Origin: Ligustrum vulgare
Taxonomy: Eukaryota > Streptophyta > Magnoliopsida > Lamiales > Oleaceae
Direction: 5' to 3'
DNA: 64,000 bases
NCBI GenBank assembly: GCA_963555705.1
Contig: OY743170.1
Span: 16,351,596-16,415,595 of the forward strand
In this document: piece after piece, positions 10,525 through 61,662 of the stretch
Position numbering within the stretch: the stretch's first letter is position 1
Layout of the letters: each line of letters opens with the position of its first letter
Translations under genes and position numbers: made by a program
The notes under the pieces: generated by a model
Databases searched by the model: none
What the model was told of the DNA's origin: nothing
What the model saw: the letters and a program-made list of their open reading frames with translations, nothing else

Positions 10525-12191
10525 TTATAAAGTCTCTAACGTCTTAATAACACCAAAGTGTCCCATTAACCCCCCACCATGAGCCTCACGCATAGAACAA
10601 TTAGGCACACAAAGTTTATTTTCTCTAAATAAATAGCCATCATGCCTATAAAACTTATCAATTGCACCCTTTTCACATGAAGCGTATATAGTGGAAAAAT
10701 CAGGGTCATCAACATACATACCTTTTATATACTCGAACCCAAGAAACTTCGCATTTAAAGAGTTTAGAAGTACGTACCTGTGAGAAAGGGCATCTGCTAC
10801 CACATTCTCCTTACCTTGCTTATAGCGGATGACATAGGGAAAAGTCTCAATGAATTCCATCCAACAGGCGTGTCTTTTGTTTAGCTTACCTTGTCCCTTG
10901 AGGTGTTTCAGTGACTCGTGGTCAGTGTGTATGACGAATTCCTTTGGCCACAGATAGTGCTGCCATATTTCCAAGGCACGAACAAGAGCATAAAGCTCCT
11001 TGTCGTATGTAGGATAATTCAAAACTGCCCCACTCAACTTTTCACTGAAAAGTGCAATCGGCCTTTTTTCCTGCATAAGAACAGCTCTAATCCCTATTCC
11101 TGATGCATCACATTCAATCTCAAAGGTTTGGTTAAAGTTAGGTAAAGCCAAAACCGTTGCAAAACATAACCTATCCTTAAGCACTTTAAAAGCATTTTCT
11201 TGTGCTTCCCCCCAATGGAATCCTACACTTTCTTGACTATTTCTGTGAGTGGTGCTGCAAGTGTGCTAAAATCTTTAACAAATCTCCTATAAAACCCAGC
11301 CAACCCGTGGAAGCTTCTAACCTCCATAATACTTTTGGGAGTTGGCAATTCTTTAATAGCACGAATTTTCTCCTCATCTACCTCAACACCATTAGCACTA
11401 ACAACAAACCCAAGAAAAATTATCTTTTCCATGCAAAAAGTACACTTTTTAAAATTAGCATATAGTTTTTCAGTTTTCAACACTTCCAAAACAAATCTTA
11501 AACGTTTAACGTGATCGCCTAAGTTCTTACTATATACCAAAATGTCATCAAAGTATACCACAACGAATTTACCAATGTAAGCACCCAAAACATGGTTCAT
11601 AAGTCTCATAAAAGTGCTAGGTGCATTTGAGAGGCCAAATGGCATAACCATCCACTCATATAAATCATATTTGGTTTTGAAGGCGGTTTTCCATCCATCA
11701 CCTTCTTTCATACGAATTTGGCGATAACCACTCTTAAGGTCTATTTTGCTAAACATACTAGCACCATAAAGTTCATCAAGCATGTCATCAAGTCTAGGTA
11801 TGGGATGACGATACTTTACCATAATATTGTTGACTGCTCTACAATCAACGCACATCCTCCAAGTCCCATCCTTTTTGGGTACCAACAAAACTGGTACTGC
11901 ACATGGGCTCATGCTTTCCCGAACATAGCCCTTTTTCAACAGCTCTTCAACATGCCTTTGTAGCTCTTTGGTCTCTTCGGGATTGCTCCTATAAGCTGGC
12001 CTGTTTGGAATGACTGCTCTCGGCACGAAGTCAATCTGGTGCTCAATCTCACGAATGGGCGGCAGCCCACTAGGAATCTCCTCGAGAAATAAATCTGCAA
12101 ATTCCTGCAAAAGAGACACAGCTAAACTGGGGAGGGAGTGGTTAGCTTCATCAAGTACAAGGAGTGATTCCTTGTACATTAGTAAAATCAC
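10525..12191 (-). pseudogene. Reverse transcriptase and RNase H of the inner gypsy element
   Basis: RT at 11223-12191 is open for 322 codons and holds [40 protein letters not shown] and the catalytic YFDDILVYS, so the RT domain itself looks intact. RNase H at 10525-11184 keeps all four acidic positions in context ([34 protein letters not shown]). A frameshift near 11190-11220, at a run of pyrimidines, separates the two. The polyprotein is therefore broken although both domains look recently functional. Confidence 0.92.
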
Positions 12192-12609
12192 GGGTTTATT
12201 TGTGGAAATAACTTTGGTGATTTCACTCTATTTTGCGTAGAAGCTCACTTTTGTTTTCTCTCTTTTATTACTGGCACTCTTCACACCCTCTCCTTTTTTC
12301 TGGGACCGTGGTCCCAACTCTCTGTTTTTCACACAACTCTCCTTTTTCCGGGATCGTGGTCCCGACCCTCTTTCTCTCTTCCTCACTTTTTAATTTCAAT
12401 TGCTCTTTATAGACCTCTTGAGGTGACAACGACATTAGTTTGACATTTTTCCCATCCTTAGTGAAGGTATACCTATTTTTAAAGACATCAAGAATAACCT
12501 TCCTATCGAATTGCCATGGCCTGCCCAGCAAGATGTGCCCCGTATGCATGGGAACTACATCACAAACCACACTATCTTCATACTTCCCAATCGCCAAATC
12601 AACTACCAC
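12192..12609 (-). pseudogene. Protease C-terminus and linker of the inner gypsy element
   Basis: The region contains VVPMHTGHILLGRPWQFDRKV, the conserved block after the protease, then a linker with short repeats of EKGE/PEK type. An in-frame stop separates it from the upstream ORF at about 12610, and two or more stops or shifts near 12200-12270 separate it from RT. Confidence 0.8.
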
Positions 12610-13488
12610 CTATTTATTCATCTTAATCTCACCCAATTCATTTAACCATTGTAGTTTATATGGCCTAGGGTGTTTTAGCATAGGTAGGCATAATTTCTCC
12701 ACTAGTGTAGTGCTAGCAACGTTCGCACAACTGCCACCATCTATTATCAAACTACACACCTTGTTATTCACAAAGCACCTAGTATGAAATATATTTTCTC
12801 GCTGATCACCCAACTCTTCCACCTTAACTTGAGTACTAAGGGCTCTCCTAGTGACAAGTGATTTAGCTACTGCATAGTCTCCATCATCATTTTCACTAAC
12901 ATCCTCTAGAGCTGGCATATCCTTATACTCATCCCCCTCTTCTTCCTCTTTCTCATCCTCCGAACTTAATATCCCATTACGCACAACCAATATTCGTTCA
13001 TTTGGACATTGTGAAGAAATATGTCCTAATACAGAACATTTAAAACAACGAACATCTCTAGTTCTAGAAGTTTGAGAATCAGAAGCAATTTTACCTTTGT
13101 TGGGTGGCTCTACTTTTCCCTTCAGTGCCTCAAATTTATTTTTCTGCACAACCCCATCATTTTTAGAAGTCCCGCTCCATAAAGACTTACCAAAAGGATT
13201 AGAACTTGTAGAGAATTTTGAAGTTCCCTTCCTTTTTAGTTGTCGTTCCACCTTCATGGCCATGTGAAGCATTTCCTCCAAATCGATATAATGCTGCAAT
13301 TCAATAACATTAGCAATATCTCGATTTAACCCACTTAAAAACCTAGCCATGGTTGCTTCCGGGTCTTCCTCTATATTTGCCCTAATCATGGTAACCTCCA
13401 TCTCTCTATGGTAATCCTCCTCACTCTTACTACCTTGGGAAATGGTTTGTAGTTTTTGGTAGAGATCCCTATAGTAATGTCCAGGCAC
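12610..13488 (-). pseudogene. Gag C-terminal half with zinc knuckle and protease start, inner element
   Basis: The segment is open for 292 codons. It has the gag capsid-like part (HYYRDLYQKLQTISQGSKSE and LQHYIDLEEMLHMAMKVERQ), a CCHC knuckle (CFKCSVLGHISSQC), an acidic segment, and the protease active-site region DGGSCANVAS near the end. It is separated from gag N by a single in-frame TGA at 13489-13491, where the outer element has an Arg codon. That fits one C-to-T change at a CpG. Confidence 0.88.
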
Positions 13489-13491
13489 GAA

Positions 13492-14160
13492 TCATTTTCT
13501 CATAAGGGCCTTCAAGTCATCCCAAGTTTCAATAAGCCTCTCCCCATTCCTCTTTTTACTAGTAACCAATTGATCCCACCATACTATAGCATAATCAGTA
13601 AATTCTACGACTGCCAATTTAACCTTTTTAGGTTCGGAATAATTATGACAATCAAAAATCAACTCTACCCTCTTTTCCCATTCAAAATAAACTTCCGAAT
13701 TAATTTTACCTTGAAACGAGGGAATGGACATTTTTATATTACCAACATGTCCATCTACATCATCCCTACGATCACGCCTATATCCCCTATCACGTCTTTC
13801 TCCCCGATCTCGTCTCCTACCAACACTAGTAATAGACAATTCACCACTATCTTCATCACTATCAACAACCTCAACACGTTCATTCCTAGCTCTAAATTGT
13901 GGGTTGAAGTCATGCCTTAGTGGTCTCCGTAAATTAGGGAAATTGCGTGGTTGTTCCTGATATGGTTGAGTAATTCTCGCACCACGTGTCTCCCTCGGAT
14001 TATTTGCTCTTTCCACATTCAAACCGGATTGTGGACCAAATTTTGCTTCCCACTTGGCATCCAACCTCACCTCCAATTTTGCAAATTGTTCCTCCATCAT
14101 TGTAAGCATTTTAAAGTCTTGAAAATCCTTTTCCGTCGATGAAGCTTCCTTATGTGACAT
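13492..14160 (-). pseudogene. Gag N-terminal half, inner element
   Basis: The ORF is 222 codons and begins with Met at 14160, as in the outer copy's gag start. It contains an Arg/Asp-rich segment (RRRDRGERRDRGYRRDRRDD) and the conserved SIPSFQGKI...YFEWEKRVELIFDCHNYSE capsid start, then KVKLAVVEFTDYAIVWWDQL. It ends at the premature TGA that breaks gag into two. Confidence 0.88.
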
Positions 14161-14637
14161 CGTTAGTAATAAAGAAAAAAAGAAGAAAATTTAAATAGAG
14201 ATTCTCACGTATTTTATCGCTCGTGTATCACTCAATTTGGCTTTTTCCCTCTATTAATCTCACCACTCTGCCTTTTTCCTCTCTATTCCCTTTTTCTCAC
14301 GTTCTCAAAGAACCCACCAAACTAGTCACGGATTTGGTCCTTGTGGAATAAACCCCAAAGTGCAAATAAGGAAAGTTGATGGAAAAATTGGAATTATGAA
14401 GTTTAAGAAGGAAATTATGGAAACAAGAATAAGGAATTTAATAGAAATAAGGATTGTTGGAAAGATTTGCCACAGATTATTTTTCGAGAAAAGATTTCTT
14501 GAATTATCTTGGAAAATTTTTCTTGATTCTTGTATCAAATCAACAATTTTTTTTTTTTGAATGAATAAAATCTGGAAATAAAAGAAAAGAACTGGAATAC
14601 TAAATACTTAGATTTAGAGACAGGCTCTGATACTAGA
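14161..14637 (-). other. Leader and primer binding site of the inner element
   Basis: This is the untranslated leader between 5' LTR and gag. The complement of the initiator-Met primer site, with one mismatch (CTCTGATACTA), is at 14625-14635 immediately inside the LTR. Otherwise the stretch is AT-rich and has no ORF of interest. Confidence 0.85.
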
Positions 14638-29255: not shown

Positions 29256-31704
29256 AGATATGAATTTATGTCAAGACAAAGGCGAGAAGCTAACAATAAA
29301 CTTCGCATGATTTATTGAGGAAATGTATGTTTCCAAAAAAATCACAAAGGCAAAGATGTTTTCAGCCTTGAAAGATGGTTTGGACATGAACAACATTTTT
29401 TGGAGAGGTGTTAAAAACATAAACCCCGAAGTTACAATGCTTTCATTGATTTGATCAACGAATAAATCATTTTCAAAGAAATGGCCAGATCTGAGATAAA
29501 TGAGACCACATTGGGTCTCCTTCCTGAATCTAAAGCACCTGCAATAGACGAAGATGGCCCACACATACCCCTTTTCAGTGGAATGTATTGCATCTATCAT
29601 AGGCAATATGATCATAGCACCAAGGACTTTCATCAACTGCGAGTATTGGCATACCACCGAGTCCACAGAATATTTGATTCTCTGGATAGTATAAATAACA
29701 GGGGACAAGACCAAGCCTTATTAAGGGTTGACTAAACCCATCTGCGGAGGAATCAAAGTGATTTTCGAAAGAATAGCGATGCAAAAGAACTAAACCGCCA
29801 AAGAAGGTGAGAAAGGAGCAAGGACTTCTAGCCAGCTCCTTAGTAGGAGTAGAGATAACTAAGAGATATTCATCATCTTCCAGCTCAGAGTCCAATTTGT
29901 GAAATAGATACCATTCTTGGAGGTCCCCACCCTGATGGACAAACTAACAATTCTCAAAAGAGATACATTAGAGAGGAGAAAAATCCTCTAACTACCATTT
30001 ACCACATCAACACCCACTTTGCTGGAACAAGCAGAACCAACCCCATCACCATCATATTGAGAAATACTAGGGGACTTCACTTCCTGCACAATAATGTGTT
30101 AGTGGTCCTGTAGTGATATACCACCTGAAGAAGGTGAAGACGTGTGCATAGTAGAAGCTCTGGGTCCAAGTTATTTGGACCTTCAAATAATCGAGGCATA
30201 TTCCAAGATCGCTTTAATCGAAATATTGGATTGATTTCCTACAAACCCACATGCCCCTTACAACAAACTCTAAATAGGGAGATATTCCTTTGAAGATCTC
30301 AACGGACGCTTGAGGAAGTTCTTGGTAGACAACTTAGACATATTTGTATCCTGGTCCTAAAATCGAGTGGCAAAATCTGGGTGTGTCTTGACTTTACTAA
30401 TGTTAATAAAGATTTCCCCAAGGATAGTTTTACCTCTCTTGGATAGACAAGTTGGTAAATGCCATGCCAGGGCGTGAATTATTGAGCTTCATGGATGCAT
30501 ATAGATCATGCCCAGCATTTGCAAGAAGCATTTGATGTTCTCAAGAAGCACAATATAAAGCTCAACCGCTGCATCTGGGAAGTTCAAATGCTTTATGGTC
30601 AATCGCAGAGGGATAGAAACAAATTTAGAAAAATTAGATCTTTGACGTAAATGCGATCCCCAAAGATGTACAAAGCCTAATCGAAATAATTTTCGCACTT
30701 AATCATTTTGTTTTCAAGTCTACTGATAAATGCTTTCCATTTTTCTAAAGCTCTGAAGACCAAGAAAAGCTTTGAATGGACTGTAGAGTGCGAAGATGCA
30801 TTCCAATCAGTAAAATAACATCTTGGCCAAGAACTCCTCTTATCCAAACCTTTGGAAGGAGAGCTTATATGTTTTTACTTGGCCATATTAGCTGAGGCCA
30901 TAAGCTCCGTTCTAGTTAGAGAAGAGGAGGACCTACAACATTCGGTTTACTATGTGAGTAAAGCTTTAATTGATGTGGAGACATAAAATCCATAATTAGA
31001 GAAGCTAGCTTTGACACTTATAATAGCTTCTAGGAAGCTTCGGACTTATTTTCAATCTCACACCATGCATGTCCTCACTAGTTTTCCTCTAAAGACGAAT
31101 TTTGCAGAATCCAACCATCAAGGGACAGAATTTAGTGGACTTCTTGGTCGAGTCCATGCAAGTTCCCGAAGTAGAGATGGTTGATGGAGTCGTCAAAACA
31201 TAGCCTTAAGGCATATTTTTAGATGGTTCAAAGGGAGAATAAAGGCCTGAAATAGTATTTGTAATCCTCGAGGGACACAAACTCCATAGTGCAATCTGCT
31301 TTAGTTTTAAAGCTTCCAAAAATGTGGCAAAGTATGAAGCACTATTGACAAGGTTAAGGTTAGCTAAATCCATGCCATGTTAAGAACATGGTAGCTTATT
31401 TGAAGCAAGTCAGGAATGCCATACCAACATTCGACGATTTTGAGCTAACTCAAATCCCACAACAAGAGAATTTCAATGTAGACGTCCTCTCAAAACTGAC
31501 CAATAGCGTGGGTTTAGAACTCCTCAACATAGTACCAGTTTAGTTCCTTCCTAAGCATTCCACGGAGCCCTGGAGGAAGTTTTTTTGTTGAGAGACTTGG
31601 AAACTTCTAAGGCTTTCCGCACATTTTATCTTCAAAGATAACATTCTTCTACGGATTCTCATGGAGCATATCTTCCACTCAGCGTTAGAAGCTCTTGCTA
31701 GGAC
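29256..31704 (+). pseudogene. Gag-pol remnants of a Tat/Ogre-like gypsy relic, right part
   Basis: Gag continues at 29262-29450 (CQDKGEKLT, FIEEMYVSKKI, SALKDGLDMNN). RT remnants appear at about 30360-30430 (SSGKIWVCLDFTNVNKDFPK) and 30520-30600 (LQEAFDVLKKHNIKLN). RNase H remnants are at about 30760-31080 (SFEWTVECEDAFQSVK, AISSVLVREEEDLQHSVYYVSKAL, LALTLIIASRKLRTYFQSH). Stops and shifts occur every 30-80 codons and long parts of RT are missing. The relic is interrupted at 31704 by the next element, and I cannot follow it with confidence after 40165. Confidence 0.65.
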
Positions 31705-33475
31705 TATAGTGCCCCGAGTTCCGTATACCCGGTTCACCACTTAAATCGTCTGATCTAACTTTTCAATTTATATTTTTGCGGAAGAAATAATTGAAATTCA
31801 TTTTTTGGCAACATTGAATAAACTGTAATGGTCGATAAAATTGTAAACATTTATGAAACCATATGAAATAGTAAATCGAACCATTAATATTGTAAATAAA
31901 TTGACAATATCATAATTTCTCAAATTATTCAATGTTTGGAAAATACGAAAATCATTAAAATCAAACTTTCATCCATTTAACGTTTATTGCCACCATCATT
32001 CATCGCTTGCCACGGTCTCCGAAATCTGCAAAATTGTTAAAAATAGACATGAGCATTTCATAGAAATACTCAGTAGGCTCATCGCCAATTAATTAATTTA
32101 CAATATAATTGAACACATAAATGCATGCTCTTTAGAAACATAAAGTGTGGGTAGTCTCTTCTTTTCATAAATCATATACTCTTTAAAAAACATTGTATGG
32201 GGTAGCGGATTGGGCTCCCTCAAGGGGCCTTTTCCCAATCTTGCCCGCATACTCATTCTGTAACGACCCGGCTCCCTCGCTGGGACCTTCTCCGAGTCAT
32301 AATCATTCTCTTTCTTCTTTTGTAGCGTTCCCGGTCCTCAAGGGATACGGCCGTCTACTCATGATCTTTTCCACAAAGGGAATACATTCTCATTTAGCGG
32401 ATTGGGCTCCCTCAAATGGGCCTTTTCCCAATATTGTCCGCATACTCATAGTCTTTCCACTTTTGTAGCGTTCCCGTTCCTCAAGGGATACGGCCCTCTA
32501 CTCATGGTCTTTCCAAGTTTTCTTTTCATAAAAACGACTTTCGCATAAGTCACGTAACATTCTCATTTCTTTTCATCAAAATGACTTTCACATAAGTCAC
32601 ATAACATTCTCATGCAAATCATAATTTAAATCAATTAATAGGGGCGAGTCTACCCATTGTTCTTTCCACGAAAAATACATTTTCATTTCCTTTCATAAAC
32701 ATAACTTTTCACAAATCACATGACATTCACATGCAATTATAATTTAAATAAATTAATAGGTGCGAGTCTACACATTGGTCTTTCCACGAAAAATACATTT
32801 TCATTTCTTCTCATAAAATGACCTTCACAAGTAACATGATATTCACATGCAATTATAATTTAAATAAATTAATAAGGAGAGTCTACCTTAAATCCGACGA
32901 GTGCAAAGTTGAGCGGGAAATGATTTCATTCTTTAATTCTCCGTACACTTCGTCTAGCCCATAATTTAGCCTTAGTCTTTAGTAATTTATAGTTTAAAAA
33001 TAATAATTTATAATTTGAGGACTGAAAATGATGTTTTGTGTAAAGATGAAAAACGTGGGGGGTGCAGTTAGGTTTAGTTAAATAGGATTAATTTAAGATA
33101 ATTAACTAAAAATTTGACTAACTTCGATTTGGAAAAATGTATTTAAAACAGATATATTTTGGACTGAAAGTAAATTTGAGAATAAATAAATTTTGAGATA
33201 AAAATTGAATTTCGTATTTGGACTTGAAATAATTTAGATAAGGACAATTTGAATTCAAAATGATTTTGAAAATAATACTTTGAATAAATAATTAAAATAA
33301 CATAATTTTAGAAATTCGGACATTTAATTTAAAATCGAATGAATTTAACATTTCTCGACTTGGCTAGACGAATCCGTCGCGGCGTTAACTTCAAAATAAT
33401 GGGTGAGATAGTAGCAACATGATTTTCTAAATATTAAAATAATTATTAATTGCGTAAAAATTCTTGGTCGCTACA
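31705..33475 (-). repeat. 3' LTR of the Tekay-like element, internally deleted
   Basis: The LTR is 1771 bp and almost identical to the right LTR outside one gap. The first dinucleotide is TA where the right copy has TG. It contains hairpin-forming GC-rich modules at 32208-32240, 32265-32298 and 32400-32432. The 1030-bp gap lies at about 33010-33020, at an 11-bp ATGATGTTTTG that is present twice in the right LTR. Confidence 0.93.
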
Positions 33476-33630
33476 ACCTTACCCCCTTAAAATAATTTCG
33501 TCCTCGAAATTTAAATTTACTTGATCTTATGATATCTGGATATTTAACCAGAATCTCTTCTTCTTTCTTTCTCTCAGGTAGCATCATCGCTACCATGTCT
33601 AACCCACTGGACTTTGACTAAAGGCATTTC
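33476..33630 (-). pseudogene. Polypurine tract and integrase C-terminal tail of the Tekay-like element
   Basis: The polypurine complement (ACCTTACCCCCTTAAAA) touches the LTR. Upstream in the minus frame come KEEEILVKYPDII, the stretch encoding a degenerate FEDEI-like end, and MPLVKVQWVRH. These are the closing segments of Tekay/Del pol next to its chromodomain. Nothing of pol remains beyond about 33640. Confidence 0.75.
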
Positions 33631-33639
33631 TTTGTTTTC

Positions 33640-34320
33640 TTAAGACATGGACTTTTCTATCAATAATGAACATAAATGTCTTCTCATAAAAAAATAAATT
33701 CTTATGAATCGTAAGTGACTGAGATTCATCATTCTTTGAATTCCATTTTGAATCAAAAACAACATAACTTATTCATAGATGGTCAACTCATTTCATAATC
33801 TCAATACATTATATCACATATTCTCAATTTCTCATATAGTCTCTAAACTTTGTATAAAGAAATATTTGTTGACTACTAAAGTCATTATTCAATAATCCAA
33901 AAGATATCACGTCTCTTCATTAATCTCTGTAAACCCATGAAAAATTTTCTTCAAGTTTAAATAAATCTTTACTAACATATCCAACCATAATAATTTGTCA
34001 TCTTTAAAAACTTCTCATCATCAAATATCACAACATTTCCCGCAAGGTATTTCTTTTACTCGTATATACGTATGAACTCTAATTCGATACGGTCATCATT
34101 TCACTTTCACGTGTCATCTCACTATACCTTGCTTTCCATTATTATAACAAAATATCAATACCAAAATCCAAGAAAATATTCCATATCTCCAAATCTCATC
34201 ATCAAATCTTCCTTTATCGAGAGACGTTAACAGCGCATTAACTCTTGTCTCCTCTTTTTATTATTTTACTCCTGCGCTTTCTTGCTGGAATCAAAATCAC
34301 TTGGATTCACTCAGATCCTT
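33640..34320. other. AT-rich spacer inside the Tekay-like element
   Basis: No ORF or recognised retrotransposon domain on either strand. The base composition (C/T/A-rich, G-poor on the plus strand, with many CATAA/TCATC words) resembles that of 36130-37340 on the other side of the cargo, suggesting both are untranslated filler of one non-autonomous element. Confidence 0.5.
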
Positions 34321-34322
34321 TA

Positions 34323-34339
34323 CGATTTTAAATAGATCG
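34323..34339 (+). promoter_or_regulatory. TATA-like box in a short inverted repeat upstream of the RNA-binding-protein-like ORF
   Basis: CGATTTTAAATAGATCG: the box TTTAAATA is flanked by CGAT and ATCG. It lies 30 bp before the ATG at 34369, close for a TATA box unless the leader is very short. A similar arrangement precedes the LOG-like gene. Confidence 0.35.
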
Positions 34340-34368
34340 TGATGGGAAGAGGTTAGATCCATCAAAAC

Positions 34369-34914
34369 ATGGATATCATCCTTTCAAACATTCGCAAGTA
34401 TTATTCCAGTCTTCATATGAATGATCTGAGAAAAATTTATAGAATTAGGCTCGAAAGATTAAGGTTGCTGATGGCTCATGGCATCCCAGAAGATGTTCGC
34501 TGGTTGATCGAAGCAAAAGTTCGATTTGCTGGTGAATTGCCATCGACATTTCCTAAACACATGCCTGGTTTAGGTAAAAGCACTTTCGCAAAGAAACGAA
34601 AAGCAAAAAGGCTGAATGGTTGCTACAAATGTGCTCGTTGGAACTGTAATACTCGTTGCAAATCAGTAGGATATTCTTCTAACAATCGGGATGATAAAAT
34701 TGAATTCATAAAGGGTGGACTGAGTAAGGAGTCTTTGGATGATATTCGATTGACTCTTGAGACGCACCCAAGTGGGTATGTGCAACGTGAACTTCTCTCC
34801 TTATACGCTCAATTTAACAAAGATAAAGACCGTTTCAGTCTCGAAAATATAGTAGCAAAAGATCATGTTTGCCAGTCTGTTTTACAAAATGAGGTTCTGG
34901 CAAACCAGCAATGA
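34369..34914 (+). CDS. Virus-like nucleic-acid-binding protein ORF (flexivirus NABP type), endogenous
   Basis: The ORF is an intact 181 codons from ATG (context AAAACATGG) to TGA. Residues 1-35 are helical and basic. 36-60 holds MAHGIPEDVRWLIEAKV. 70-82 is a dense basic patch KSTFAKKRKAKRL. Four Cys follow at 85, 88, 93 and 97 (C-x2-C-x4-C-x3-C). Then comes DDKIEFIKGGL at 109-118. A basic patch followed at once by a small Cys cluster and a short FI-x-G motif is the pattern of the small RNA-binding proteins at the 3' end of carlavirus, vitivirus and trichovirus genomes, several of which suppress RNA silencing. The N- and C-terminal extensions are longer than usual. No viral coat protein frame lies upstream. 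The gene is antisense to the host retrotransposon. The family call is by pattern only. Confidence 0.6.
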   Translation: MDIILSNIRKYYSSLHMNDLRKIYRIRLERLRLLMAHGIPEDVRWLIEAKVRFAGELPSTFPKHMPGLGKSTFAKKRKAKRLNGCYKCARWNCNTRCKSVGYSSNNRDDKIEFIKGGLSKESLDDIRLTLETHPSGYVQRELLSLYAQFNKDKDRFSLENIVAKDHVCQSVLQNEVLANQQ

Positions 34915-35112
34915 TATAAGGTAAATCTCTTGTTACATATTTAAAATATTCTTCTGTTTCCTTTCACGCGTTTTGATAAAAGTTGGAAATAAAATATTGA
35001 ATCGCCGAAAGGTGACAGTCTCGATACGATAAAAATATTCAAAAGTAGGCTGATTTTGTCAAAAGCAAATCTTTACTTTTTCAAAAGCTAATCAGAAACA
35101 GTGTAGTTTTTC

Positions 35113-35126
35113 GGCTTTAAATAGCC
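35113..35126 (+). promoter_or_regulatory. TATA-like box in a short inverted repeat upstream of the LOG-like gene
   Basis: GGCTTTAAATAGCC: TTTAAATA is flanked by GGCT and AGCC and lies 72 bp before the ATG at 35198, a normal spacing for a plant TATA box with an about 40-nt leader. Two CAAAAGC words (about 35059 and 35083) lie just upstream. Confidence 0.45.
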
Positions 35127-35197
35127 AAACATTTTCATAGTTCAGGCATCCCAAAATCACATCTTCTTCGTAAGTTTTCCCTTCTTTACTATTAAAG

Positions 35198-35852
35198 ATG
35201 GAAGCACCAAAACTTCGACAGATCAAAACTATTTGTGTAATTTTGTGGATCAAAAGTGGGGAAAGGTTTTGGGTATCTAGAAACAGTTGTAGATCTTGGA
35301 AAGAAACTGGGAGAGAAAGGTATAAATCTTGTGTATGGGGGTGGTAGCAGTGGTCTGATGGGTTGTGTTTCCCAATCTGCTCTCACAGAGCAAGTAAAAG
35401 TGATCGGTGTTATACCTGTCCCTTTGGCAGATATAGCAGGCAAAACTCGAGTGCATGAAGTGCAAACCTTATCTATCCATGAACGCATAACTTGTATGCT
35501 ATATGGTTCTGATGCCTTTATAGCCCTACCCGGAGGTTTTGGTACTTTAGAAGAAATCTTCAATATTACCTCCTGGACTCAACTAGATCTCCATACTAAG
35601 CCTATTGGGCTCTTAAATGTTAACAATTTCTTTGATGGTTTGTTAACCTTTCTTGACTATGCCGTGGAACAGGGATTCATCTCTCCATTTTCCAGAAGGA
35701 TCCTTATTTCTGCTCCTACTATTGATGAACTACTGGATAAGCTGCAGTCATATATCCCAATACAAGATCCAGTAGGTTTTAAGGTAGATTGGTCGCAAGG
35801 AAGGGGAGTCAAGCGAAAATGGAGTCCGGTTAATGTAAACTTAACTCTGTGA
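35198..35852 (+). pseudogene. LOG-type cytokinin riboside 5'-monophosphate phosphoribohydrolase, intronless, one frameshift
   Basis: LOG enzymes release the active cytokinin base from its riboside monophosphate. The frame from ATG 35198 reads 14 codons of a normal LOG N-terminus (KTICV). A 1-nt insertion at 35239/35240 then shifts it, and the remaining 203 codons are open to TGA at 35850-35852. Conserved blocks are the glycine-rich NLVYGGGSSGLMG, VIGVIPVPLA, the phosphoribose-binding PGGFGTLEE (35529-35555) and KPIGLLNVN. The usual His-x-Arg-Lys block reads HERITCM, so the Arg is kept but the Lys is replaced. LOG genes normally have several introns; this copy has none, which points to a retrocopy. 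Translation could begin only downstream of the shift, losing the Rossmann start. Either it is a very young pseudogene or a sequence error mimics one. Confidence 0.85.
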
Positions 35853-37350
35853 ATCTTAGAATAGGTGGGGGTAGAGTACGGAGTATTCTTACCCTCGAGA
35901 CACCCCTCAAATTACTAGGATTTCCTTAATGTTTAAATCTTGTGTGTACCTCAAAGTTTCAAGGTGGTAGGATACGGCTACTCCGGAAACACATCTCTCA
36001 TTTTGAGGACTTTTCCATGTTTTTCTCATTTGCTTTTGTGTGTTTCATGTATTTCCTTTCTAGTGTGACTCTTGTATGTTCTCTTCATGAGAAATAATAA
36101 TATTTCTGTTATCGTCTACTAAATCTCGCTTGTGATGTAAATGAACTTGCATGTCTAACCTTAATTCCTTTAGTGGATGCTTATCATATTATGCTCTTAA
36201 TTCCAAATTATAAAATTCTGGACAGAGTCTCCCTTGTAATTTGGACTTATCCAACCCGTAGGTATACTTCATAACCAACAATAACAAATAACTCCACATT
36301 TATTCACAACGATTTAAAAATATTGACAACGATTCCAACGCTTCAATATCATCAAAAATATCCCATAATTCCTCATCATAAGAATTTCAAATCATATTCG
36401 TCAATATCATAATTTCACTTCTTTCAATACATTAATTGTCTCACAAGACTACTCATACTTATAAATATATGCCATAAATCATATTTCCAAAATTTATTCA
36501 CAAGGCCAATCTTCATAATAAATTTCTCTTCAACATAGAGGCATAATTCATTTACTCAACATAATATCCATCACTTAATTCTCAATAACCAAATCTTTAA
36601 ATCTCTAACTTCATAATTCTTCTCATAAAATATCAATAAAATCATATCACTTATAATCTCAACATCTCATAAAACTTCATAAAATTGACTTGCTATTTCT
36701 CGTTTAATCTAAACGATAGATAATCTGAACATATTGTCTAATCATTTCTGTTGACTTCTCATACTTAGTGTCATGTCTAAAATCAATTATGCAAAGTCCA
36801 GTTAGGGTTCATCATTTCTAAACTTGACGACAAAATTATTTTGAAATCATTCTTAAATCATATTATTCCCATTATGCTCAACACTCGTTCTCTTTCTTTT
36901 CTTTCTTATTCGGAAATCTCTTTCTCTTTAGTAACGACCCGGCTCCCTCGCTGGGGCCTTCTCCGAGTCGTACTCATAGTCTAAAACATATAAGTTATGA
37001 CAAGCATAACAACATCATTATTTCTGAAGAAAATACATTCTCATGAATATAAAATTTCAAGTCTCATGCATTGAAGCAAGTAAGTTTTGACAAGCATAAC
37101 AACATCATAAATCTTCTTTCTCATAAATCATTAAAATAAGTATCCGAAATACTCTTCATTCTTTCTCATAAATCCGTAAATAAGTATTCGAAATACTGAA
37201 ATAACTTTAAACATCATAAACTTCTTTACCTCGAAGTTGGTGGAACGAATGATGGCAGTGGCAATCTTTATCCATAACAATTTCATAATGGAAAATGTTT
37301 CTTGAAATTTTCTTTTTGAAAACTTACCAGTCTACAGAAACGCAGACTGG
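35853..37350. other. 3' flank of the LOG-like gene and leader of the Tekay-like element
   Basis: 35868-36020 holds two GC-richer hairpin-prone blocks (GGGTAGAGTACGGAGTATTC and GGTAGGATACGGCTACTCC). AATAATAATAT at about 36095 could act as a plant poly(A) signal for the plus-strand gene. From 36130 the sequence is AT-rich without ORFs. At 36932-36975 a segment (ACGACCCGGCTCCCTCGCTG) repeats a hairpin module otherwise found inside the LTRs (32263 and 37922). No gag is present. Confidence 0.45.
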
Positions 37351-37361
37351 CTCTGATACCA
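37351..37361 (-). other. Primer binding site of the Tekay-like element
   Basis: CTCTGATACCA is the complement of the initiator-tRNA-Met primer site, 3 bp inside the LTR at 37365. It sets the minus orientation. Confidence 0.9.
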
Positions 37362-37364
37362 ACT

Positions 37365-38973
37365 TGTAGCGCCCCGAGTTCCGTATACCCGGTTCACCAC
37401 TTAAATCGTCTGATCTAACTTTTCAATTTATATTTTTGCGGAAGAAATAATTGAAATTCATTTTTTGGCAACATTGAATAAACTGTAATGGTCGATAAAA
37501 TTGTAAACATTTATGAAACCATATGAAATAGTAAATCGAACCATTAATATTGTAAATAAATTGACAATATCATAATTTTTCAAATTATTCAATGTTTGGA
37601 AAATACGGAAATCATTAAAATCAAACTTTCATCCATTTAACGTTTATTGCCACCATCATTCATCGCTTGCCACGGTCTCCGAAATCTGCAAAATTGTTAA
37701 AAATAGACATGAGCATTTCATAGAAATACTCAGTAGGCTCATCGCCAATTAATTAATTTACAATATAATTGAACACATAAATGCATGCTCTTTAGAAACA
37801 TAAAGTGTGGGTAGTCTCTTCTTTTCATAAATCATATACTCTTTAAAAAACATTGTACGGGGTACCGGATTGGGCTCCCTCAAGGGGCCTTTTCCCAATC
37901 TTGCCCGCATACTCATTCTGTAACGACCCGGCTCCCTCGCTGGGGCCTTCTCCGAGTCATAATCATTCTCTTTCTTCTTTTGTAGCGTTCCCGGTCCTCA
38001 AGGGATACGGCCGTCTACTCATGATCTTTTCCACAAAGGGAATACATTCTCATTTAGCGGATTGGGCTCCCTCAAAGGGGCCTTTTCCCAATATTGTCCG
38101 CATACTCATAGTCTTTCCACTTTTGTAGCGTTCCCGTTCCTCAAGGGATACGGCCCTCTACTCATGGTCTTTCCAAGTTTTCTTTTCATAAAAACGACTT
38201 TCGCATAAGTCACGTAACATTCTCATTTCTTTTCATCAAAATGACTTTCACATAAGTCACATAACATTCTCATGCAAATCATAATTTAAATCAATTAATA
38301 GGGGCGAGTCTACCCATTGTTCTTTCCACGAAAAATACATTTTCATTTCCTTTCATAAACATAACTTTTCACAAATCACATGACATTCACATGCAATTAT
38401 AATTTAAATAAATTAATAGGTGTGAGTCTACACATTGGTCTTTCCACGAAAAATACATTTTCATTTCTTCTCATAAAATGACCTTCACAAGTAACATGAC
38501 ATTCACATGCAATTATAATTTAAATAAATTAATAAGGAGAGTCTACCTTAAATCCGACGAGTGCAAAGTTGAGCGGGAAATGATTTCATTCTTTAATTCT
38601 CCGTACGCTTCGTCTAGCCCATAATTTAGCCTTAGTCTTTAGTAATTTATAGTTTAAAAATAATAATTTATAATTTGAGGACTGAAAATGATGTTTTGAA
38701 AGTTTAGGGACTAAAATGAATCTTTTGAAAGTTCAGGGACTAAAATGTAAATCTTTTAAAACTTGTGCTTAAAATCAAATGAATTAAATCGGAAGGGACT
38801 GAAATAAAATGGGTTTTAAAAATGAAGGGCTAATTAAAACTCATTTAAAACTTGGGGACTGATTTGAAATAACTTTAAAACTTCAGGGAGCAAAACGCAA
38901 ATTCTGAAAATTAAAATATTAACATCAGATTTCTCTTTCATTTCACGATCTGAAGGCATAAGAGAGAAAATAC

Positions 38974-39017
<44 letters not shown>

Positions 39018-40165
39018 GAACTAGGGCGTAAATCCGTCCTTCGACGGGAGATTCTGCCGGCGTAACACCGGAGTAAGGTGGCGGTGAGCGACGGGGCGTT
39101 ATAGACTAAGTTTTTGTGTGGTTTAGGTGCAAGAAATGGGTGCGAAACATTGTATAAAACAGCGGCTTAGATCGCGATTCTGAAGGTCAAATCTTAGCTG
39201 CGAAATCCGGTGATGGTTGAGGTAATTAACTGGCTCCGTCTATTCTTGGGTTTGGTTGAGGATTTGAGTTTAATTTTTGGATGGGCAGTGGCGGTGAAGG
39301 GAAGTTTTGTGTTCAGTTTGAATTGAGTGTTCGATGATGGAGGCAGCGATGATGAAGATGGTGACTCTATGTGTGTTTGATGGGAGTTTGCAGTTTACAT
39401 TGCTGAATTGAGTTTGTTTTGGTGACTTGACAGTGGTAGCTCGATGGTTTGGATGCAGGGTATGAATATGGTGGTGATGATGATAATTTGTGACCTGCAT
39501 TGGATGGAAATTCTTGGTGGTGATGGTGGCAGATTGGTGGCTGGTTGAGTGAAAGGGAGTGAAAATGGATGAAGTTGAAATGGCTGCTTGAACTGGAGCT
39601 GGGTGGATGCTAAACTGAAATTGTACAGAGTGGTTTGGGTGGTGACTCCGGTTGATTGCAGCTGTTATGTATTGAATTTGTAACGCCTGGAATTTGCCGG
39701 GGGTTGGAATAATAATGATGATGTTTTGTGTAAAGATGAAAAACGTGGGGGGTGCAGTTAGGTTTAGTTAAATATGATTAATTTAAGATAATTAACTAAA
39801 AATTTGACTAACTTCGATTTGGAAAAATGTATTTAAAACAGATATATTTTGGACTGAAAGTAAATTTGAGAATAAATAAATTTTGAGATAGAAATTGAAT
39901 TTCGTATTTGGACTTGAAATAATTTAGATAAGGAAAATTTGAATTTAAAATGATTTTGAAAATAATACTTTGAATAAATAATTAAAATAACATAATTTTA
40001 GAAATTCGGACATTTAATTTAAAATCGAATGAATTTAACATTTCTCGACTTGGCTTGACGAATCCGTCGCGGCGTTAACTTCAAAATAATGGGTGAGATA
40101 GTAGCAACACGATTTTCTAAATATTAAAATAATTATTAATTGCGTAAAAATTCTTGGTCGCTACA
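37365..40165 (-). repeat. 5' LTR of the Tekay-like element, full length
   Basis: The LTR is 2801 bp, TGTAGCGCCCCGAG...GGTCGCTACA in plus reading. The 1030 bp absent from the left LTR (38688-39717) contain a series of GGGACTAAAATG-type repeats (38700-38900), a (GA)n run (38976-39014) and a GC-rich segment at about 39020-39110. A TGATGG-rich tail follows. Confidence 0.94.
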
Positions 40166-40170
40166 AGGAC

Positions 40171-41275
40171 TGCACTGCTCCAACGAATCTTATGCCTCCA
40201 GTTCAAATGTTTAAAAAAGCATGTATATTGAACTTCATTGTTTTATTTAACCTATATACTACAACGCCGATAGAAATTAGAGTTAAGTCTAGCGCCAAAG
40301 CAGTACATAATGGAAACAATTTTTAACATAAATAATATTTTATTTATGAATCATCGCGATTAGAGAGGAAGTTATTCCCTATAATCTCGCCACCTCAACA
40401 AGTTCAACACAAATAATAGCCACTACAAATTCTCTCCAAGGATACAGCCACGTATGGGTCGACCCTACATCTATAAATTCATCTACGAACTCCTTTGATT
40501 GCTGTTTCTATTCCTGCTCCTCAAATGATACAAAAATGCCAAAAAACTAGCTGAACAACGCATTTTCAAGGAGCAATTAAACATTCCCTTGCTGGAATAA
40601 CTTCCAAATACAAAAAGCGATCTGAAGGGTTGAAATTCTCCCTAAAACAAGACCCCAACTCTAATGCAATGGGTAAGGCAGAAAATAGATGTAATAAGGA
40701 ATGCACCATATTCATGACCCATGGAAGCGAAGCGGAGAGGAATATGATCTTGAATCCCAAGCTTGCTGGCCTAGAATTGCATCCATGCAAACTCATAGGG
40801 TCTAGGGTCAACCTTAAATTTTGGAGTCTCAGGAACCTTGGTAAGCAAGTGCATACTTCATTAGTCCTAGAGACCATCATTGGATCAACAAAAATGAGTC
40901 TTCAAACCGCGAACCAAGAGTCACAATGCTCTATCACCTATAAGAAATAGATATCATGATATTATTATTGGCTACATGATGGAATGTCCGAGGTGGAATT
41001 GAACCCTCATTGACTCACTCATTTTCATATCTCCCATACCAACTTATAGATCATGAAAGCTAGAGGAACAATTGAATCCAACATCAAAATGGTCCAAACA
41101 ATGGGAATATTGAACAATTTTCATGGCAATATAATGGGAAGAATGTTGTGTAGTGTCATGCAAAGTACCAAGAATTCTTCCCTAATTATAGGCTACAACA
41201 TCGAAAGCTAAAAAGACAAATGAAGAGGCACACATTTATGGCGTTGTGGAAACTCATCAGTCACCCTATAATTAG
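40171..41275. other. Unassigned spacer
   Basis: It may include more of the Tat-like relic, since it directly follows the TSD of the element inserted in it, but no domain can be named. Both strands are open at 40566-40950 (104 and 106 codons) without resemblance to any family I know. A plus-strand stretch near 40330-40530 looks like UTR-type sequence. No feature can be called. Confidence 0.3.
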
Positions 41276-56990: not shown

Positions 56991-58254
56991 TTAGGGATGG
57001 CAATTGAACCGTCTGAATCGAAAATCGTGGTGAACCAAATTGAATGGTGTGAAAAAAATCGAACCGATAGGGACAATGGAGCGAGTATGGTATGCAAATT
57101 TAATTATCCGATTTTTGGTGGGGCGAGTATGGTAATTGTGTCGGTGCCCCGCCCCGAACTGAATATCGGATTAAAAAAATGATTTTAAGCTATTTAAAAC
57201 TTAAAAAACCCAAAATTAGAGTTTCTATTTAAAAGTTAATTAATCCAGATCACATAACCAAAACCCAATCCAAATCCAAATTCATTAACCCTAAGTCTAT
57301 AGTTATCTGAGTATCTTATTCATTTATCTCTACTCCATCAGTCACTCTCCATTTCAACAGACTGCAGTTCTTCATAGGTGCCACATACACACCGACTGCA
57401 TTTAAGATTTTCTTTTCATTTTCCTTAGTTCCAAACTCATCACTTTCACTTATAGCCTCACAGACTATTTCTCTATTATGTGTAGAAAATTCTACTCATT
57501 CATCATACTTTGGAGCTTGTGCAAAGTTTAGTGAGGAGGATGTTGGCGACGAGGTACAATTTTTGTTTGAATATTTAGTCAGGACTGTTGTGAATTAAAG
57601 TGTAGCGCCCCGAGTTCCGTATACCCGATTCACTACGTCATTTTCTGTCTAAATTTTTCGAATAATATTTTTGCGGAAGAAATAATTGAAATTCATTTTT
57701 GGCAACATTAAATAAACTGTAATGGCCGATAAAATTGAAAACATTTATGAAACCATTTGAAATAGTAAATCGAACCATTAATATTGTAAAGAAATTGTCA
57801 ATGTCATAATTTCTCAAATAAATGAACTTCTCTAAATTATTCGATTGTTTGGAAAATACGGAAACCATTAACGTCAAACTTTCAACTGTTTAACGATTAT
57901 TGCCACCATCATTCATCGCTCGCCACCGTCTCCGAAATCTGCAAAACTGTTAAAAAGTAGGGTGAGTATTTCATGGGGGAAATACTCAGTAGACTCATCG
58001 CAAATTAATTTAATTTATAAGATGATTAAACACACAAATCCCGGCTCTTTATAAAACGGGCATTGATAGAGCTTCTTTATAAAACTGCTCTTGATAAAAC
58101 TCATATTGTGCATTACAGCACGGGACATATTTTGCAAATCATAGGCTCTTTGAAATTAGCTCTTTGAAAACCATATACTTATAAAAACATTTTAATTATG
58201 CCGAGCATAATTTCTTTTGAAAGCATAACATAAGATAGGATTGAAATCCTCATA

Positions 58255-58535
58255 AACATAAGAATTTTACCGAACTTAGGTGGCAAGAATTCTTATGTAG
58301 TAAGTATACCAAGCATAATTTTCTGAAATTCATAGGGATCAATTGCATCATAACATAAGATAGGATCGAAATCCTCATAAACATATGCGACAGGAATTTT
58401 ACCGAACTTAGGTGGCAAATCCTCATAAACATATGGAAACATAGGAATTTTACCGAACTTCGTGGCAAATCCTCATAAACATAGGAGACACAAGAATGTT
58501 ACCGAACTTAGGTGGCAAGAATTCTTATGTGTAGC
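58255..58535. repeat. Tandem hairpin-forming repeat inside the solo LTR
   Basis: Four units carry GGAATTTTACCGAACTTAGG-TGGCAA followed by TCCTCATAAACAT. AAGAATT...AATTCTT and AGGATT...AATCCT pairs allow stem-loops. It sits where the 31.7-kb element has its GGGCTCCC hairpin modules. Confidence 0.65.
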
Positions 58536-58975
58536 GCTACTAAAACTCCGGTCCCCTTAACATATCATAACTTATCATATGGGACCCAAAACAATCTTGG
58601 TAGATTGATTTCATAGCAATGATCCAAAAAAGCATTTTCGTGAAGCATAGGGTATACTTACTTTTCGTAAAAACATAAAGTATATTTTCTTTTCATAAAA
58701 ACATACTTACTTTTCATAACAACATAAGGTATATTTACCTTTCATAAAAACATACTTGTTTTTCTTAAAAATTGACTTTCACAAGTCACATGACATTCAT
58801 ATGAAATCATAATTTAAATCAATTAATAAGTGCGAGTCTACCTCAAATCCGACGAGTGCAAAGTTGAGCGGGAATGACTTCAATTTCTTTAAATTCTCCG
58901 TACGCTTCGTCTTAGCCAATAAGTCACTTTAGTCTATCGAATATATAGTTCAAAATGATAAATTATAATTTGAGG

Positions 58976-59095
58976 ACTAAAATTGATGTTTTGAAAGTTG
59001 AGGGACTAAAATGAATATTTTCAAAGTTCAGGGACTAAAATGAATATTTTGAAAGTTAAGGGACTAAAATGAATACTTTTAAAACTTGGGCTTAA
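58976..59095. repeat. GGGACTAAAATGAATA short tandem repeat in the solo LTR
   Basis: About four units of 30 bp (AAAGTTGAGGGACTAAAATG and close variants). The same kind of repeat occurs at 38695-38760 in the full-length LTR. Confidence 0.7.
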
Positions 59096-61662
59096 AATAA
59101 ATCAGCAGGTACTGAAATAAAAGAGTTTAAAGTTAAAGGGCTGAAATTGATAAGTTTAAAAGCTGAAAGGACTGAAATAAAACCTTTTTAAAACTTGAGG
59201 GGCTTAAGTGCAAATTTCCGAAATTAATTATATACTCAGATCTTTCCTCTCTCTCTCTTACCATTCTCTCACTCACCACTCTCTCTCTAACTCACGATCC
59301 AGTAAGAAAGAAAAACGGAGCTGCGACTTGTGCGAAGTTCCTCACTCAAATCCGGCATAAAAGCCGGTGATTGGCCGGTGAAACGCCGGGAAGGGTGGCG
59401 TAAAGTGATGGTTCAAGAGGGTCCTGGTTGTGTTAAAGTTTTGATGCGAGTACAGGTTTGAATCAGAGATTTATCGAGGTAGACTGAGGCTGAAGATTGA
59501 GGTTTTCCGGCGATAATCCGGCGATCGAGGTAGGTAGGTATTTTGGGTATTCTATTTCTTGGGTTTTGGTTTGATTTTGGGTTTGGGCGATTTTCCGGTG
59601 ATTGAGGTGGTTTGGCCGTCTATGGCTGTGGTGTTTGGTGATGATGAAGATGATTAAATTGATGTCTAAGTTTGATTAGAATAGGGCAGTGGTGGTGTTT
59701 GTTGGAATTTGCAGCTTGTTTCGATCGAGTTGGATCGGCAGTGATTCATTGGTGGTGGATTGATATTGGACGAAATGGCTGTTGGGTGGTTGATTAAAAT
59801 GGAAGTGAAGGTTGGTTGTAAATCTCGGTTTAGCTCTTGGCAGTGATGGAGCTGATTGCGATGGAGTTGAGCTGGTTGCAGTGGTTGGTCAGTGGCTGCG
59901 GATTGGTGGTTTAGAGTTCAAATTGAGTAGAGGTAGTTTGGGATTGAGTGATTGCAGTGCTATCATTCAAGTTGTGTGATGAAGGTGGAAATGGATAGTG
60001 GTGGTTTTGACATTGATGATAATGGGTAGATTGATGAAACAGTGGTGACTGATGATGGAGGCAGGGTTGTGGAGCTATTGCTGCAAATTGGTGCCAATGT
60101 GATGATGGTGTATCGACAGCTTTGGTGAATTGGGTGTTAACAGAGTGATGGTGAGTTTGTAGGGGTTCTTGGTTGATTGCAAAAATTGGGGATTGAAGTA
60201 TTGTTGCTTGACATTGAATGGATTGATGGTAATGGAATGGCTGCGTGAGATGGTAGTGAAAGGTGGGAATGGAGACTGAATTATTACTTGAATGTGATTT
60301 GTGATGAAAGGGATGTTATAATGATGAATTGGAATGGTGGTAGGTGTAGTTGGTGAGATGATGCTGGGTATTTGCTCTTGGCCGAGTTATGATTATGATG
60401 ATAATGATGATGTGTGCCCATGTTGAAGATACTTTGGTGATGGTGTAATGAAGTGGAAAGAGTGAAAAATAATAGAACATGTATATATCATCATTATGTT
60501 CTTGAACCATAATGATGGTTGTTTTTGGTGGACAAAGAAAAGGAAGGAGGAGAAAACGTGGGAGCTAAAAATGGAGTGTAAAGATGGAGTTTGCACATGG
60601 AAGGATGATGAAATTGTGTAGAGATTAGTTGGAAATGCTTTGGTGTTTGTATAATGATATGGAATATGAAAATAGAAAATAGATATAAAATTTTATATAT
60701 ATAATGATGATGTTTTTATGTAAACAATTGTACTAAAACTGATATATTTTGGACTGGAAATAAATTTGAGAATAAATTGAATTACGTATTTGGACTTGAA
60801 ATAATTTAAATAAGGAAAATTGAGATATTTTAATAAATTTGGAATTCAAAATGATTTTGAAAATAATACTTTGAATTAATAATTAAAATAACATAATTTT
60901 AGAAATTTGGATTTTAATTTAAAATCGAACAAATTCGATATTTCTTGACTTGGCTAGACGAATCCGTCGCGGCGTTAACTTCAAAATAATGGGTGAAATA
61001 GTAGCGACACAATTTTCTAAATATTAAAATAATTATTATTTATTGCATAAAAATTCTGGGTCGCTATATAAAGTATTGTTGTTATATTATTATTACTCTA
61101 CTCACATTCTTATTTATTGTATATGAATCAACAGTGACATATGCCGACAATATTTGTAGGGGGGAAGAATGAAGTATAAAGGTCCAAAAACAAAATATTT
61201 GTTGTTCTCAGGTATTGAGATTGGGAAAAATAATTTATTTTGTCTTTTTATAATCATACTGTAATATATTAATATTGTTATGCTCGTAATATTATTTTCT
61301 AAATTCGGATTTTGAATTGTAGAATTGGGATATTGTTTGCATTTCGCATTTGAATTCGAGATATTGTTTGCTTGTTTAGTATTGTTATTTTTATTTTTAT
61401 TTTTTAACAATCTGATTTTTTTAGGTGGACTTATAAAAATTAATTTATATTTAAGTGGTTATTAAACTCACTGAAATGAATCGAACAGAGATACGCACCG
61501 AAATTGCACCGACTCGACTTAGATAATTATGGGGCGGTTACGGTATGAGCAAAATTGATGGTTCGGTTATGGTTTTGAACGAACCGATCCCGAACCGAAC
61601 CGTTGTCAATTATTGAATAATAGAATTTTACTTCTTCCTAGTTCTATTAGGATTTGTCTAGT

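Follow-up and report, generated by a model that had tools for sequence, protein, structure and literature searches.

The genome of Ligustrum vulgare carries the same two-gene cassette, an NABP-like gene followed by a LOG-like gene, in two unrelated families of LTR retrotransposons. The element in the window (the whole 64,000-nucleotide stretch of contig OY743170.1 that was analysed) is one decaying copy of the first family, in which the cassette is conserved and antisense to the element. An earlier note on this DNA knew of no described element with this pair; for the pair this stands, as our literature search found no report of NABP and LOG together in a retrotransposon, whereas LOG alone was already known from Gypsy elements of Citrus and Populus (available part of PMC9289625, citing Steinbauerova 2011). 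What is new relative to those reports is the pairing of NABP with LOG, present as a single cassette in both of these families.

The window element lies on the minus strand at 31705–40165, with its interior at 33476–37364, and is flanked by the target-site duplication AGGAC (31700–31704, identical to 40166–40170). Its left LTR (1,771 bp, minus strand, 31705–33475; the 3′ LTR of the element) aligns with its right LTR (2,801 bp, minus strand, 37365–40165; the 5′ LTR) with 1,322 of 1,332 and 443 of 449 positions identical, and is without about 1.0 kb that is present in the right LTR. A minus-strand polypurine tract (AGGGGGTAAGG, 33477–33487) adjoins the left LTR, and a minus-strand primer binding site (37350–37361), whose complement is TGGTATCAGAGC, lies 3 bases from the right LTR; these positions place the element on the minus strand, so that NABP and LOG are both antisense to it. 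All of the parts by which the earlier note had delimited the element are present, with AGGAC on both outer sides, and so are the two plus-strand genes, each with its own TATA-like box. The sequence TTTAAATAG precedes the intact 181-amino-acid NABP-like gene (34369–34914) at 34327–34335 (unaltered in 13 of 14 copies) and likewise the LOG-like gene (35200–35852) at 35116–35124 (unaltered in all 14). Rfam gave no match at the gathering score over 31600–40300. The note's observation of an element with antisense NABP and LOG is confirmed, and its interpretation, a captured or spreading cassette that could blunt silencing and alter local cytokinin, is partly supported. The check that the note had proposed came out in its favour, with several duplication-flanked copies, both frames conserved and dN/dS below 1; and of the outcomes that it had named as refuting, two are contradicted, as the element is not single-copy and both frames match their profiles.

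The absence of gag–pol was also correctly read: no long gag–pol-like frame occurs in the interior (frames were judged by eye, and two interior pieces compared with Pfam gave no match), and the longest minus-strand frame there, of 128 codons, overlies LOG. Because of this, we regard the window element as non-autonomous. The interiors of the nine loci that we scanned contain no pol-like frame, and an LTR search (104 matches from 40 scored of 7,531 candidates, with a minority of the places inspected) found no autonomous partner. The ‘integrase tail’ reported earlier did not hold up: Pfam gave nothing at E ≤ 10 for the 47-amino-acid piece taken as this remnant, and we rejected the identification. 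An affinity with the Tat lineage is likewise unsupported, as no pol is left for placement, and the primer site, which we take to be of the iMet type, is not suggestive of Tat. Nor is it of the Ogre type, which corresponds to tRNA-Arg (available part of PMC9289625).

The identity of the NABP-like gene is borne out by two flexivirus-type profiles, PF05515 (E 2.9e-7, 31.1 bits; cut-off 23) and PF01623 (E 1.4e-4, 22.2 bits; cut-off 20.9), both of which match the reading frame above the curated cut-off. Among its relatives, Carla_C4 matches 25 of 29 and Viral_NABP 24 of 29. The cysteines of the Cx2Cx4Cx3C zinc finger are either invariant (C88 and C93) or conserved in at least 90% (C85 and C97) of the 29 sequences, as is each residue of the basic patch K75 K76 R77 R78 A79. 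This arrangement, in which a basic patch is followed by a cysteine zinc finger, is shared with flexivirus NABP and cysteine-rich proteins such as CVB p12 and SPCFV NaBp; the protein differs from them in its length of 181 amino acids, its long N-terminal helical part and conserved C-terminal part, and its place in an LTR retrotransposon with no other viral gene seen alongside. Two fold models are weak (pLDDT 68.5, pTM 0.38; pLDDT 68.6, pTM 0.39) and were not used as proof. The second gives flexivirus-type NABP or silencing-suppressor proteins as its five top viral fold matches, all of them weak (E 0.075–1.9); for the first, a flexivirus protein appears only as the top match of seven (E 0.92). 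Sequence searches gave no support for a viral origin: a scan of viral contigs with the NABP alignment found no relative, and the 120 matches listed, of 345, to 62-amino-acid pieces of NABP include none named for a virus; transfer could have run in either direction. No NABP was found in plasmid records. Nucleic-acid binding and silencing suppression are putative activities of the retrotransposon NABP. Among its viral relatives, CVB p12 is presented both as a hyperplasia-inducing transcription factor and as a weak silencing suppressor (available part of PMC12172455).

The second gene is indeed a member of the LOG family (PF03641, E 1.7e-33, for the frame at 35241–35852), but it is not intact in the window copy, where the start is broken: the ATG at 35200 is not in frame with 35241–35852, and homology runs from residue 15. 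Lysine_decarbox matches all 22 of the LOG relatives compared with it. Like the plant enzymes AtLOG3 (PDB 2a33) and AtLOG8 (1ydh), retro-LOG has the PF03641 domain, the PGGxGTxxE motif and a conserved Arg; unlike them, it falls on a separate side of the tree, is one uninterrupted frame, and mostly has another residue in place of the Lys that follows this Arg. The 120 nearest relatives are called retro-type by clade, a location inside elements being read for the copies of this genome, and among these 120 the PGGxGTxxE motif occurs in 107, with M, I or L after the conserved Arg in 98 and K in 6 (14 were unparsed). The window family has R-I instead of the Arg-Lys pair before the PGG motif. In LOG enzymes the residue after the conserved Arg contacts the substrate, and the Lys of the pair is required; because it is mostly replaced, the activity of retro-LOG may be altered, and cytokinin release is predicted from family membership. 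Host LOG genes have introns, and the 150 places listed in a LOG search of this genome look like uninterrupted element frames. Of the 116 full-length relatives of retro-LOG, 97 have a basic C terminus that finishes with an EAR-like LxLxL (0.7% of shuffled tails), whereas AtLOG3 ends in IGYSSEE. In the intact copies of this genome the tail reads VNVNLTL or VNVNLSL (PINVNLTL in L035), compared with LxLxL in EAR.

The window element is far from the only copy of its family. Among 28 copies read, NABP is intact in 19, LOG in 19 and both in 17, and target-site duplications are present in all four copies with readable outer ends (in one, four bases are visible). Nearly identical LTRs in some copies of this family point to recent activity: L023 has 0 mismatches in 3,107 positions, L018 has 2 in 2,852 along with 3 gap positions, and L016 has 2 in 2,647, the last two being truncated where the sequence read stops. 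Across nine copies, identity is 0.67–0.97 (mostly at least 0.85) over approximately 34.1–36.3 kb and 0.09–0.79 outside, and conservation of the boxes and flanks is highest on the cassette. By simple counts of synonymous and replacement changes rather than a formal test, nearly all pairs have an ω (dN/dS) far lower than 1: 0.06–0.35 for NABP in 62 of the 64 pairs listed and 0–0.27 for LOG in the 55 pairs listed. Both proteins have changed much less than the synonymous sites of their genes. The window copy is decaying, with its LOG start frame broken and a NABP ω of 0.78 against L010 and 0.70 against L019.

The counts of changes bear on the idea that what functions is the antisense transcript rather than either protein, as a source of dsRNA or siRNA that controls the element. 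Such a role has been discussed for plant LTR elements (available part of PMC7264820), but we consider it highly improbable here, given the large excess of synonymous over replacement changes per site in NABP and LOG and the conservation of motifs in both proteins between species. Both have homologues across several orders of eudicots, with roughly 50–60% identity; LOG matches include Populus, and a Citrus NABP–LOG protein, P0098, is among the homologues.

The second LTR family is structurally unrelated, with a length of 6.3 kb, 208-bp LTRs, target-site duplications and other primer-site and polypurine sequences, and it matches the window element only over the plus-strand cassette at 34054–36038 (about 81%), which is again antisense and in the same order. 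Its LTR pairs differ at 1 and 0 of 208 positions, and two copies differ at 15 of 6,328; their NABP genes show 2 replacement and 0 synonymous changes, too few to judge. A further 27 places are approximately 100% identical and end at, or at most 13 bases from, the element end, and a 43-base tag of the LOG gene of this family has 1,301 exact occurrences (control, 0). These dispersed tags, together with the 27 places that stop near the element end and the near-identical LTRs, indicate amplification of an element and not a host gene, and although LOG is a host enzyme family, we find it hardly credible that the cassette serves the host as domesticated LOG and NABP with its copies as by-products.

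Between the families (for each gene, 12 copies against one), ω is 0.06–0.12 for LOG at dS 0.45–0.52 and 0.15–0.23 for NABP at dS 0.50–0.81. Such values disfavour, by the present counts, a passive cargo in which a host LOG and a viral sequence were trapped once and merely copied without use to the element, as do the 17 of 28 copies with both frames intact, the promoter-like boxes, which are better conserved than the remaining interior, and the relatives found across several orders of eudicots. In favour of passive cargo, plant LTR elements are described as taking up genes by transduction (available part of PMC7264820), the window LOG is broken, NABP is no longer intact in 9 of 28 copies and LOG likewise in 9 of 28, and ω reaches 0.78 and 0.70 in the window subfamily; even so, we consider passive cargo quite improbable. 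Somewhat doubtful but possible is an exchangeable module, in which template switching or recombination carries an old NABP–LOG unit time and again into further, unrelated LTR families and the cassette is the unit of selection. The restriction of the match to 34054–36038, the shared order and antisense orientation, and the different LTRs, primer sites and polypurine tracts all speak for it; it draws on just two families in one genome, and a host locus resembling the cassette, captured independently by each family, would be an alternative source. It is compatible with the explanation that we favour.

That explanation, which holds about half of our confidence, is of a maintained accessory cassette that would make host cells permissive. 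The elements would be mobilised in trans, and the cassette, as an accessory module, would have promoters of its own that drive its transcription. The zinc-finger product of the NABP-like gene may act as a nuclear transcription factor, an RNA-silencing suppressor or both, as reported for its flexivirus relatives, while LOG would release active cytokinin. Together they could keep the expressing cell, above all in meristems, proliferating and weakly silenced, a state in which element RNA would be made and new copies could reach the germ line. The cassette would link transposon success with an enzyme of a plant hormone and with a gene family whose other known members belong to RNA viruses. Why selection should maintain the genes in non-autonomous copies is not easily explained, because the products of NABP and LOG act in trans; it would need to act per cell or in unseen autonomous relatives. 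Selection per cell on the carrier is what an unlikely, more selfish variant supposes: NABP would blunt silencing and reprogram transcription in the very cell whose cytokinin LOG raises, with the result that meristem lineages with active elements over-proliferate and become over-represented in the germ line. This would explain both the intact trans-acting genes in non-autonomous elements and the same cassette in two unrelated families. The LxLxL of EAR motifs recruits TOPLESS, and the basic EAR-like LOG tail of most relatives could do the same.

Whichever way the cassette works, it resembles the antisense aORF-3R of plant LTR retrotransposons (Grande gene23, RIRE2, Retand and PvRetro13) in adding genes antisense to the element in most copies (available part of PMC7264820). 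The Grande gene has its own promoter and a nuclear product. In the same text such antisense genes are without clear similarity to other proteins described and their function is unknown, whereas here two clear gene families are present, and no gag–pol-like frame occurs in the cassette copies scanned. As the functions of both gene families can be assayed, NABP and LOG appear constrained, and the LOG tag of the second family occurs at 1,301 places, the role of antisense retrotransposon genes becomes directly testable. The YgdH/LOG-domain consensuses of Citrus and Populus likewise place a LOG domain inside Ty3/Gypsy elements and possibly belong to the same lineage as the cassette; the available part of PMC9289625 makes no mention of a NABP partner, an antisense pair, the tail motif, non-autonomous carriers or a second LTR family. 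Orchid Gypsy elements with an AlkB m6A demethylase, described in the same part, also combine an LTR element with an RNA-related gene whose domain is known from flexiviruses, although the gene is different and gag and pol are kept there.

The window element is a minus-strand LTR retrotransposon at 31705-40165 (window, G000:C3:16351596-16415595; assembly searched, 1.38 Gb), delimited by LTRs, a target-site duplication (AGGAC on both flanks), a primer site (37350-37361, the complement of which is TGGTATCAGAGC) and a polypurine tract (33477-33487). Pairwise alignment places the LTRs at 31705-33475 and 37365-40165, with mismatches at 10 of 1332 and 6 of 449 aligned positions; assuming 1.3e-8 substitutions per site and year, this 0.9% divergence gives an insertion age of about 0.35 million years. 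The left LTR is approximately 1.0 kb shorter than the right (33028-33038 and 38690-39720), and the short repeat ATGATGTTTTG lies at the joint. The longest minus-strand frame of the interior (33476-37364) has 128 codons and runs across LOG; the remaining ones were inspected by eye. An integrase tail, which the earlier note took for the sole remnant of gag-pol, could not be substantiated: a 47-amino-acid minus-strand piece, possibly the one meant, has no Pfam match.

Two plus-strand genes occupy this interior, and profile searches bear out the identities first proposed for them. NABP (34369-34914, 181 amino acids) matches Viral_NABP (PF05515, 2.9e-7) and Carla_C4 (PF01623, 1.4e-4), both beyond the curated cut-offs; LOG (frame 35241-35852) matches Lysine_decarbox (PF03641, 1.7e-33) and the Arabidopsis protein AtLOG3 (PDB 2a33) at 1.5e-50. 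The LOG start codon of the window copy, an ATG at 35200, is not in frame; in other copies LOG is intact, with 217 amino acids in most. A TTTAAATAG box is common to NABP (13 of 14 copies) and LOG (14 of 14). Among nine copies, identity across approximately 34.1-36.3 kb is 0.67-0.97 (mostly at least 0.85, falling lower between the two genes and after them); outside that segment it is 0.09-0.79. Earlier work describes a YgdH/LOG domain in Gypsy consensus sequences from two species of Citrus and from P. trichocarpa (PMC9289625, citing Steinbauerova 2011), a Tekay 5' ORF without a known domain (PMC11728184) and antisense ORFs for which no clear protein similarity is described (PMC7264820). The literature searched, which gives partial coverage, yielded no report of NABP in a retrotransposon or of an NABP-LOG pair.

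A DNA search of the genome gave 156 matches (40 scored of 14197 candidates). From the places listed, we examined 28 copies: the window element, 19 at 10 kb (seven top-scoring and twelve lower) and eight at 4-5 kb. NABP is intact in 19 and LOG in 19 (counting that of L010, with 210 amino acids); 17 keep both, as had been anticipated for a real cargo. Target-site duplications were readable in four copies (window, AGGAC; L013, GTAGT; L025, TAAAT, from the flanks; L023, four of four visible bases), the outer end elsewhere being beyond the stretch or unpaired. The LTR pair of L023 is free of mismatches over 3107 positions; that of L018 has 2 mismatches plus 3 gapped positions over 2852, and that of L016 has 2 mismatches over 2647, both of these alignments being cut by the stretch end. 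Such near-identity indicates that the family was recently active. Frames of at least 140 codons, listed for nine loci, are NABP, LOG, low-complexity LTR frames and, in L009 and L026, element-like frames that lie outside the interior; in L024 (5302-6231) a gag-like zinc-knuckle insertion, judged by eye, splits LOG. Within the window, 57602-61066 is probably a solo LTR belonging to this family, with 84-86% identity over three main segments and a TAAAG target-site duplication on both flanks, and minus-strand frames at 4820-14190 resemble, by eye, Ty3/gypsy gag-pol remnants. One-strand matches 6.5-7.3 kb apart at G000:C4:5976598-5991602 and C16:38902167-38917842 are probably tandem LTR-interior-LTR-interior-LTR arrays.

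The same cassette is carried by a second LTR family, described from two places of an AtLOG3 search of the genome (8913 candidates, of which 150 were scored; 143 of these lack an internal stop and dozens share an identical score). The very young element at G000:C1:503543-509870 (6328 bp) has 208-bp LTRs with one mismatch, ends TGTTATAA...TTATAACA, a GTTTT duplication and its own polypurine tract; its primer-site sequence differs from that of the window element, and frames of at least 110 and at least 90 codons included none that was gag-pol-like. NABP and LOG are again antisense, the former 81% identical to the window NABP and the latter 93% to the LOG of another copy (L006), and similarity to the window element is confined to the cassette (34054-36038). 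Another copy on the same contig (L038) differs at 15 of 6328 positions and has identical LTRs and an ATCAT duplication. At least 27 further places match at approximately 100%, all ending at or no more than 13 bases from the element end (28 scored of 15315). A 43-base tag from the LOG end, which counts LOG alone, occurs 641 + 660 = 1301 times; its backward-read control occurs 0 times.

Nei-Gojobori counts on 12 intact copies per gene (pairs with dS above 0.02) agree with the earlier expectation of dN/dS below 1 for both ORFs. These simple counts come from pairs with branches in common, which are thus non-independent. Omega is 0.06-0.35 for NABP in 62 of 64 pairs and 0 to 0.27 for LOG (55 pairs); NABP of the window copy gives 0.78 against L010 and 0.70 against L019. 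Between families, omega is 0.06-0.12 for LOG (dS 0.45-0.52) and 0.15-0.23 for NABP (dS 0.50-0.81). Between the two copies of the second family, NABP shows two replacement changes and no synonymous one, and LOG shows neither kind.

For elements whose structure, copy number, conservation and recent spread are observed directly, we propose that mobilisation would occur in trans and that the cassette would be transcribed from its own promoters. A nuclear NABP might act as a transcription factor or silencing suppressor, by analogy with the roles reported for carlavirus relatives (PMC12172455), and LOG would release cytokinin. Trans-acting genes could persist in non-autonomous elements through per-cell selection in meristems or through unseen autonomous relatives.

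Relatives occur in other plants. Among 120 listed of 210 NABP protein matches are Populus, Acer, Xanthoceras, Citrus, Orobanche and Striga, and among 120 listed of 6229 LOG matches are Reevesia, Diplodiscus, Populus, Diospyros, Primulina, Xanthoceras, Orobanche and Parasponia. Contigs of equal size in both listings (8723; 4511; Xanthoceras 21981555) suggest that the genes are linked there too, and a Citrus protein (P0098) is NABP fused to LOG. NABP relatives match Carla_C4 in 25 of 29 cases and Viral_NABP in 24 of 29; for the first, weak predicted NABP structure, the top match alone of seven fold matches is a flexivirus protein (E 0.92). A partial NABP-like protein of 98 amino acids (P0279), on a 293-base contig labelled Clostridioides difficile, is probably plant contamination.

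In a tree with sparsely sampled host LOGs, 46 LOGs (L006 and 45 that we infer to be borne by retroelements, picked from the 120 nearest matches) are separated from AtLOG3, AtLOG8 and two bacterial LOGs (SH-aLRT 95). The Lys that follows the conserved Arg is replaced in most of the 120 relatives: M/I/L stands there in 98 and T/V in 2, K in 6, with 14 unparsed. LxLxL, an EAR-like form (EAR motifs recruit TOPLESS), is the C terminus of 97 of 116 full-length proteins among these nearest LOGs (P0121-P0240), accompanied by a basic run, and is absent from the AtLOG3 end. Below 85% identity, 36 of 46 end in LxLxL, all 36 with a preceding basic pair (shuffled tails, 0.7%); intact Ligustrum vulgare copies mostly end in the degenerate forms VNVNLTL or VNVNLSL.
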